From Dehalococcoidia bacterium (lineage in GTDB: Bacteria > Chloroflexota > Dehalococcoidia > Dehalococcoidales > JAUXAP01): 45,451 nucleotides of DNA. The position numbers and the translations under genes are program-made. Shown in pieces: positions 1-1,727 of this stretch (positions are counted from its first letter, which is position 1; each line of letters begins with the position of its first letter). The stretch lies in NCBI GenBank assembly GCA_030619865.1, contig JAUXAP010000007.1, positions 1-45,451 of the forward strand, given 5' to 3'. Below the pieces are notes generated by a model that saw only the letters and a program-made list of their open reading frames with translations, was not told where the DNA came from and did no database searches.

Positions 1-665
1 ACATATTTCTGGTTTCTCTCCTCGCCAGCACAGCAGAGGTCATAGAAATTCTGAACTATCTCCTGGTTTATGTGTTTAAAATTTTGAGCTAAACTGGAAC
101 CCGTTTTCCTAAACCGTTCATTGTCAATTAGAAACACGGCGTCAGCATATTGACTTACCGTGTTGAGACAGGTAGCAGTGTTCATTACTGCGTAAGAAGT
201 GTTCCCCTTCTCTTCGAATGCAAATGGAAGCACTACCATAGCGTAAATAGGTTTCGCCACCCTCTCTTTAAGTTCTTTTATTGTCCAGCCGATGGTCCCA
301 GAGCCGGTGCCTCCCCCTCCGCTAGCTACGGTCATAATGGCATCGGTCTCATGGAACTTTTGAGACTTTAAAATAGTATCAGTGACCACTGCATGACTGT
401 CTTTGATAATTTCGGCGGCGGTAGCATTTATTTTTCCTACTCCGTGACCAAAGGTACTCATAGTGCCGACCAGGATTCTATGGTTCTTGTCACCTGGAAT
501 ATGTTTGAAACCACCTAAATCTGCTTCATCAGTATTAATTGCGAAAGCATCAGTCAGAATTTCAATCCGCCGGTTAAAAAGCGACTTGGCATAATTGTTT
601 ATGGCGTAAAACTCGTCAGCAATATTGCAGCCACATTGCCCAAAACCTACCACTACTAGTTTCAT
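1..665 (-). CDS. CetZ/FtsZ-like tubulin family GTPase (partial, C-terminus beyond window)
   Basis: The minus strand reads open from an ATG at 665 to the left edge (221 codons, no stop), so the C-terminal domain is missing. The start is fixed by a strong AGGAGGTG ribosome binding site a few bases upstream. Residues 7-14 (GFGQCGCN) form the nucleotide-binding first loop and residues 115-123 (SGGGGTGSG) the tubulin/FtsZ signature loop. VVLPFAFE near 144-151 and FLIDNERFRKTG near 178-189 resemble the core after the signature. From memory, the N-terminus (MKLVVVGFGQ), the HGVG motif near 74-77 and the DNxxxRKTG...INxEIV stretch look closer to archaeal CetZ than to standard bacterial FtsZ. Expected role: GTP-dependent cytoskeletal polymer affecting shape or division. 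The family call (tubulin superfamily) is firm; the CetZ subgroup is an inference. Confidence 0.85.
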   Translation of the reverse strand, partial: MKLVVVGFGQCGCNIADEFYAINNYAKSLFNRRIEILTDAFAINTDEADLGGFKHIPGDKNHRILVGTMSTFGHGVGKINATAAEIIKDSHAVVTDTILKSQKFHETDAIMTVASGGGGTGSGTIGWTIKELKERVAKPIYAMVVLPFAFEEKGNTSYAVMNTATCLNTVSQYADAVFLIDNERFRKTGSSLAQNFKHINQEIVQNFYDLCCAGEERNQKY

Positions 666-838
666 TTTTCACCTCCTGATGAATTTTTAAACTGTTTAGG
701 TTTACCTCAAATTTGACTCGGTGATTAATCTTTCGAAACAGTATACATGATCAATAATAAAAATTCCAGTTTCTATTCGGTTTTTATACCTATACACCAT
801 TTATTGTACCTCAGGTGAATTCATTGTAAATAGAGAGA

Positions 839-1169: not shown

Positions 1170-1727
1170 ATGCCAAAGTGTCCTAATTGCGGTCTGAAAG
1201 CTGAGATAACAAGGGATTGGGCCTGCCGATGGTGTGGCTATCCATTGATATCGAGGTATTATACCAAGGAGAAAGTAAAAAGAGAGGCTGAAGAGGCCAA
1301 GAAGGCTAGAAAGGAAACAGAGAAGGCCAGAAAGGAAGCTGAGGAAGCCGAAAAGCAGGCTAGGAAGGAAGCCAACAAACTGGCCAAGGAGAAGACAAAA
1401 AGAGAGGCTGAAGAAGCCAAGAAGGCTAGAGAAGAAATTGGCGCAGAGACCTATTATGAGAAAGAAGTTAAGCTAGTGTTACCGTCGCTAGTAAGTTTTG
1501 AGCGATTAAGGCAACTTGAGAAACACATAGAACGGGTTGAGAACCTGAAAATAGTATGGACTGCGGGGTCCGAGGACGAAGGCGAAATAATCGCTGTATT
1601 ATTACAGAAACCATTGAATTTGATTGCCATCCTCAGCGAAATGCCTATGGTACAAGAGGTTCATAAAAAGGGGGAAACTATTGTGCTAATGCTAAAGACT
1701 CCCGTAGGCAATTCCGAAGATTACTGA
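1170..1727 (+). CDS. Zinc-ribbon protein with charged coiled coil and conserved C-terminal domain, unknown function
   Basis: The 185-residue protein starts with a zinc ribbon (CPNC at 4-7 and CRWC at 19-22). A very charged Lys/Glu/Ala heptad-like helix follows (roughly 35-90), then a compact C-terminal domain (about 100-178) with alternating hydrophobic strands. No signal peptide or membrane segment is seen. The helix-coding DNA contains a 120-base internal duplication: 1264-1310 and 1384-1430 match at about 43 of 47 bases, exactly 40 codons apart. The gene stands alone with its own promoter. I do not recognise a characterised family. The architecture suggests an oligomeric scaffold or nucleic-acid/protein-binding factor, which is inference only. 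Confidence 0.75.
   Translation: MPKCPNCGLKAEITRDWACRWCGYPLISRYYTKEKVKREAEEAKKARKETEKARKEAEEAEKQARKEANKLAKEKTKREAEEAKKAREEIGAETYYEKEVKLVLPSLVSFERLRQLEKHIERVENLKIVWTAGSEDEGEIIAVLLQKPLNLIAILSEMPMVQEVHKKGETIVLMLKTPVGNSEDY
1264..1430 (+). repeat. Internal direct repeat (120-base period) in coiled-coil coding DNA
   Basis: Bases 1264-1310 recur at 1384-1430 with about four differences, and the intervening bases carry related Lys/Ala/Glu codons. The 120-base offset is a whole number of codons, so copies can be gained or lost without breaking the reading frame. Confidence 0.65.

Follow-up and report, generated by a model that had tools for sequence, protein, structure and literature searches.

Whether CetZ, a branch of the tubulin/FtsZ superfamily described as archaea-specific in the Brown and Duggin papers (PMC9856176; PMC11621097, 2024 literature), also serves bacteria is the question raised by a partial gene at the start of a contig from a Dehalococcoidia bacterium. 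An earlier note, made from the letters alone, had proposed that this gene looks closer to archaeal CetZ than to bacterial FtsZ and would represent a second cytoskeletal tubulin in a bacterial chromosome. The window analyzed here, 45,451 nt long, is the whole contig (G000:C7), and its source assembly is a metagenome-assembled genome (MAG) of 823 kb that is 58% complete and divided into 27 contigs. The reading frame starts with ATG at 665, is open over 221 aa, and continues off the contig start, and the product comprises the N-terminal 221 aa (the GTPase domain and the start of helix H7), with the remainder lying past the contig end. The relevant features are listed below.

3..665, minus strand: partial gene for a CetZ-type tubulin homolog (open frame; PF00091 at 88.9 bits; nearest PDB entries, by sequence as well as by fold, are the three CetZ structures)
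670..677, minus strand: Shine-Dalgarno sequence AGGAGGTG, separated by 4 nt from the ATG of the gene downstream (read from the sequence)
435..446, minus strand: HGVG motif, aa 74-77, common to archaeal CetZ, where FtsZ has LGVG (alignment; the H/L position is a CetZ-diagnostic column)
297..323, minus strand: T4 loop SGGGGTGSG, aa 115-123, glycine-rich and GTP-binding (alignment)
54..125, minus strand: DNERFRKTG...INQEIV stretch, aa 181-204, matching DNDAWRKTG...INEEIV of CetZ1 (phmmer alignment to 4b46)

The three motifs quoted in the original suggestion (SGGGGTGSG, HGVG, and DNxxxRKTG...INxEIV) are present. The GTP-contacting motifs of the T1-T4 pocket are intact in the alignment, and the S following GGTG represents the CetZ state, where FtsZ has T. 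Upstream of the gene, promoter and terminator scans yielded scores little above those of shuffled sequences. A 185 aa protein encoded at window positions 1170-1727 (plus strand) diverges from the cetZ promoter region; it combines an N-terminal zinc-ribbon-like CPxC...CxxC part with a long charged helix, and a distantly similar protein is encoded at a further cetZ locus (L058:3-548, E 4e-8).

Assignment of the fragment to the superfamily is secure, as its match to the Pfam Tubulin/FtsZ GTPase domain PF00091 (6.7e-25, 88.9 bits) is far beyond chance, while its score against the FtsZ equivalog TIGR00065 (52.2 bits) lies far under the cut-off of 295 bits. Among solved structures, the best sequence matches are CetZ1 (4b46, 4e-31), CetZ2 (4b45, 6e-21), and Methanosaeta CetZ (3zid, 5e-12), and the first FtsZ (1.7e-6) follows only after these three entries. 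The same ranking is obtained by fold: when the fragment was modeled with AlphaFold2 (mean pLDDT 82), CetZ1, CetZ2, and MtCetZ were its top three PDB matches (TM 0.84, 0.84, and 0.81), with FtsZs at about 0.60-0.73 and the TubZ fold, at 0.71, also below CetZ. From the full-length model of the paralog on contig C8, whose C-terminal half is poor (mean pLDDT 61, 16-row alignment), only the match ranking was used. In a set of CetZ/FtsZ diagnostic columns made here, with Dehalococcoidia alone on the FtsZ side, the fragment covers 26 columns and is CetZ-type in 13, FtsZ-type in 5, and neither in 8; Methanosaeta CetZ gives 12/5/32 of 51 columns on the same set.

Since the window copy breaks off immediately ahead of the catalytic T7 loop, with the C-terminal domain missing, both were read from orthologs at 60-72% identity, and statements on the T7 loop and tail of this copy are inferred from them. 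The CetZ_C domain (PF21011; curated cut-off 21.6 bits) reaches 13.2 bits over 30 residues on the truncated copy and 60-64 bits in three full-length orthologs of its clade. The T7 acid is Asp (LDAGDI/IDAGDI) in these orthologs and in the genome's own paralog, as in FtsZ, whereas CetZ1 has the catalytic Glu218. According to published analysis, FtsZ-type residues also occur in Pyrococcus CetZ (D250, E274); the T7 residue varies inside the family, and we do not regard the Asp as barring CetZ membership.

A phylogeny of 52 rows, inferred under LG+C20 with archaeal CetZ taken from plasmid records and PDB alignments, places the protein outside bacterial FtsZ: FtsZ forms a group of its own (100/99), and the window clade (100/100) stands on the CetZ side, which also holds haloarchaeal and "canonical" bacterial CetZ, among Dehalococcoidia-type CetZ proteins that all join at 87/89. 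These placements refer to a tree built without CetZ from Thermococcales, Methanosarcina, and Archaeoglobus, archaeal FtsZ, TubZ, or tubulins (eukaryotic ones included). Sequence, fold, tree, and the CetZ_C domain of the orthologs agree, and we regard it as almost certain that the gene encodes a bacterial CetZ and hold with equally high confidence that the protein is distinct from the division FtsZ.

The genome itself carries three tubulin-superfamily genes: a standard ftsZ directly after ftsA on contig C23 (FtsZ_C domain at 110 bits), a complete CetZ-like gene after gapA on contig C8 (CetZ_C at 57.7 bits, no FtsZ_C), and the window copy on C7, which has no ftsA or other dcw-type neighbor. The proposal of a CetZ-type tubulin separate from FtsZ stands, since neither of the two outcomes named as overturning it, a place inside bacterial FtsZ or being the sole FtsZ of the genome, was observed. 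The count of two has to be corrected, as two CetZ-like genes stand beside FtsZ. The window protein and the C8 copy are 51% identical and are not orthologs. The former belongs to a rarer, third subfamily found in 12 genomes (11 besides its own), at 60-72% identity. The bacterial setting that had been noted is borne out by its contig neighbors, which include CorA, ValS, PolX, SecA, an FtsK-type ATPase, UvrB, and RuvA.

Of 400 Chloroflexota genomes sampled, 28 carry the CetZ_C domain, every one of them a member of the class Dehalococcoidia. A sample of 196 genomes from that class contained 46 carriers, and Haloferax volcanii was the sole match in a set of 14 controls. Within the order, the window protein finds matches in 131 of 156 genomes, closed genomes included, and there are usually two or three CetZ paralogs per genome. 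Presence in the order is both broad and old. Relatives named in public records are Dehalococcoidia or Dehalococcoidales MAGs, and the closed relatives G008, G047, G074, and G056 all carry CetZ, so that an archaea-only distribution of the family does not hold. CetZ is not essential everywhere in the order, because some members, among them the closed genome G268, have no detectable copy. Several members of the order in which CetZ is lacking, such as G004, G003, and G015, have at least two genuine FtsZ copies instead, and Dehalococcoides itself apparently has two FtsZ and two CetZ. In Dehalococcoides mccartyi 195, DET0343 is the ftsA-linked FtsZ, and the FtsZ annotation extends to DET0589 and DET0636, whose transcripts were measured (PMC5102406); the gene order suggests that the main CetZ could be DET0589.

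That Dehalococcoidia have CetZ-like proteins is already published: the portion of Santana-Molina et al. 2023 (PMC9871819) available to us reports them in "sparse", paraphyletic Dehalococcoidia, with a CetZ C-terminal HMM at about 1e-10, and these represent the same protein group in the same class. The term "sparse" does not fit the near-universal presence in the order (131/156). Relative to that portion of the paper, the present analysis adds this near-universal presence, an exclusion from walled lineages, an FtsZ-like tail, a coiled-coil neighbor, and the third subfamily. The mutual exclusion of CetZ and transpeptidase, the DIPSLL-like tail, and the coiled-coil neighbor of one paralog appear to be undescribed.

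Within the class, CetZ occurs almost only in lineages without a peptidoglycan wall. The penicillin-binding transpeptidase domain PF00905 is present in 93 of the 196 genomes, and co-occurs with CetZ in a single genome against 21.8 expected (Fisher p 2e-14, a value that overstates independence because it goes back to a single loss of the wall and two or more acquisitions of CetZ, the 46 carriers not being independent observations). In the sole exception, G359, the transpeptidase lies on a 3.4 kb contig, is absent from five siblings, and is probably contamination. PF00905 was found in none of 36 further genomes of the order, comprising these five siblings and 31 others, all tested carriers of the window clade included. 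Strong MreB matches (E about 1e-120) are likewise confined to transpeptidase-bearing genomes, and CetZ carriers show weak MreB matches only, at around 1e-13. In a published reconstruction (PMC10284905), Dehalococcoidales and the marine radiation share an ancestor in which peptidoglycan was lost, as a single event; Dehalococcoides cells are described there as irregular discs that lack it. About 58 wall-less genomes of the 196-genome sample, more than half of the wall-less ones, have no CetZ. By analogy with Haloferax, on which the link to shape rests, the Dehalococcoidia CetZs are good candidates for a shape skeleton of wall-less cells.

A further property of the Dehalococcoidia-type proteins is their C-terminus, where CetZ_C is followed by a helix-like linker and then by a conserved tail at the extreme end. 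A motif [ILV]-P-x-[LIVF] within the last 12 residues occurs in 109 of 117 nonredundant Dehalococcoidia-type CetZ proteins, in comparison to 16 of 841 other ORFs of those loci. The commonest exact form is DIPSLL, and window-clade tails read ELPTLD, NIPTLD, DIPRLA, and similar. These tails resemble the end of FtsZ in the same genomes, ELD[VI]PSFLRRP (DIPSFLRR-type). SepF was found in none of the 196 genomes of the class though FtsZ is present, with positive controls matching in seven named genomes; its absence would leave FtsA as the obvious tail receptor. To judge from tail sequences, FtsA as the anchor of the CetZ tail is a tentative suggestion.

Gene neighborhoods differ among the paralogs. 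The main one belongs to a conserved cluster, eno - (c7) - gapA - cetZ - dnaX - ybaB - recR, following gapA in about 39 genomes with enolase nearby in 30. In six genomes, the window-clade gene has gapA immediately on one side and, on the other, a further cetZ or the end of the contig, a placement that shows it to be at home in bacterial chromosomes. The second paralog adjoins, usually convergently, a long coiled-coil protein of 400-900 aa that is rich in alanine and glutamate and is built on a 25-residue repeat; a conserved C-terminal motif around RLExLxxMY is present at 26 of 30 loci. Second-paralog loci often also encode a charged helical protein of 150-190 aa (21 cases), and Pfam gave no match for the members that were scanned. 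The long coiled-coil protein is a candidate cytoskeletal partner of the second CetZ paralog. It is unmatched in the window's genome, a result obtained with a repetitive query and no positive control on a 58% complete MAG from which the second paralog is also missing. Examples of the coiled-coil protein are L033:8735-10531, L153:7328-8803, and L164:4733-6067, with about 27 other loci, and a 7+7+11 pattern within its repeat is possible.

Taken against known systems, the closest likeness is to Haloferax volcanii CetZ1 and CetZ2 (4b46, 4b45), which are nearest in sequence and fold and share the GTP pocket, HGVG, the SGGGGTGSG-type loop, and CetZ_C. The archaeal proteins likewise occur as several paralogs beside FtsZ in hosts without peptidoglycan. 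They differ in being only about 34% identical, in their separate position in the tree, in their host, which is a bacterium here, in T7 (E218 there, D in the Dehalococcoidia type), and in their tail, ELDPLF/ELESLF as opposed to [D/E]-[I/L/V]-P-[S/T]-L-[L/D]. Bacterial FtsZ shares the superfamily, the GTPase fold, and a C-terminal peptide of the same kind, which reads D-[I/V]-P-S-F-L-R in the FtsZ of these genomes, but the window protein falls far under the TIGR00065 cut-off, its own paralog has CetZ_C rather than FtsZ_C, no ftsA adjoins it, and a separate FtsZ is present. TubZ/PhuZ and BtubA/B are also prokaryotic filaments of the superfamily, whereas Dehalococcoidia CetZ is chromosomal with stable synteny, and BtubA/B match weakly. 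The PHROG PhuZ family gave no match for the window protein and only E=0.034 for the paralog, a tblastn search of phage records with the paralog found nothing, and plasmid matches were haloarchaeal only.

Taking these observations together, the reading we favor is that of a GTP-driven, membrane-tethered CetZ filament that organizes shape in bacteria without peptidoglycan; its identity component is well supported, its function is inferred, and as a whole it is probable rather than assured. CetZ would bind GTP in the intact T1-T4 pocket and polymerize head to tail, with a T7-loop Asp from one subunit completing the GTPase site of the following one, the part played by Glu218 in CetZ1; that the protein is a polymerizing GTPase is likely. 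The C-terminal D-I-P-S-L-L tail would anchor the filament at the membrane, with FtsA as the simplest link, and the filaments and their paralogs would position surface material and give form to cells lacking both a peptidoglycan wall and MreB, with one paralog probably working with the neighboring coiled-coil protein. Whether the role would be in shape or surface organization rather than in division is, by analogy, evenly balanced.

The principal alternative is a divergent second division FtsZ that co-assembles with or modulates the Z-ring, its DIPSLL tail binding FtsA at midcell as the FtsZ tail does. The similarity of the tails, the FtsZ-like Asp in T7, and the annotation of such Dehalococcoides genes as "cell division protein FtsZ" (PMC5102406) would all fit, but phmmer, the Pfam C-terminal domain, the tree, and the fold group the protein with CetZ, many relatives carry a genuine second FtsZ besides, and the genes adjoin gapA/dnaX/recR or coiled-coil genes rather than a dcw-type context, so that we consider it unlikely. 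Somewhat less probable still is a metabolic or signaling scaffold, in which filaments organize enzymes instead of shape and the proximity of gapA and enolase is functional. Besides this recurrent proximity in the main copy, it could draw on archaeal CetZ neighborhoods, which also include biosynthesis genes (PMC9856176). However, with dnaX-ybaB-recR in the same cluster, the arrangement resembles a conserved set of housekeeping genes, gapA is not near the window copy, and the exclusion from wall-bearing genomes finds no explanation in a scaffold.

The position of the gene at a contig end in a fragmented, incomplete MAG could also suggest an archaeal fragment mis-binned into a bacterial assembly. 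This was rejected and has a negligible probability, given SecA, UvrB, RuvA, and ValS on the same contig, orthologs at 60-72% identity that other MAGs of the order carry within bacterial clusters (gapA-cetZ-cetZ-dnaX), and CetZ in four closed relatives.

A widespread bacterial CetZ family whose occurrence goes with the lack of peptidoglycan and MreB would make the shape and division of the disc-shaped, wall-less Dehalococcoides testable in cultured strains, and would offer a second, independent system for asking whether it is wall-less cells with surface layers, and not archaea as such, to which CetZ is tied. A CetZ with an FtsZ-like tail provides a concrete hypothesis of two tubulin-family filaments sharing, or competing for, a membrane anchor in one cell. 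A bolder scheme, which we put forward as speculative and rather doubtful, is that CetZ filaments, FtsA-tethered by an FtsZ-type tail and braced by the long coiled-coil protein with 25-residue repeats, replaced the wall and MreB as the shape system in the peptidoglycan-less half of the class, and that CetZ was acquired at least twice (Dehalococcoidia-type and canonical-type), each time only by wall-less lineages. Under this scheme, a tubulin-family cytoskeleton would do in bacteria what it does in archaea without walls.

The canonical-type proteins form a second bacterial CetZ set, from other families of the class, with CetZ_C at up to 137 bits; haloarchaeal CetZ joins this set at 98/97 in the tree, and a separate acquisition from archaea is likely on sequence grounds. 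Copies at L095, L109-L112 (G155, G513, G464, G454, and G429), and L113 (G489) are much nearer haloarchaeal CetZ, score 94-137 bits with CetZ_C, and have no DIPSLL tail. A fast-evolving CetZ paralog, also without the DIPSLL tail, was observed at L107:4721-5878 (plus strand), L108:10528-11640 (minus strand), and L104:6019-7179 (minus strand). In the L107 copy, the GTP-binding loop is degenerate (DGNFGSM, not GGGTGSG) and HGVG is lost. All three genomes keep a second CetZ copy, with intact motifs in the L107 genome, and judging from its sequence, the fast-evolving paralog is possibly a nonhydrolyzing partner subunit.
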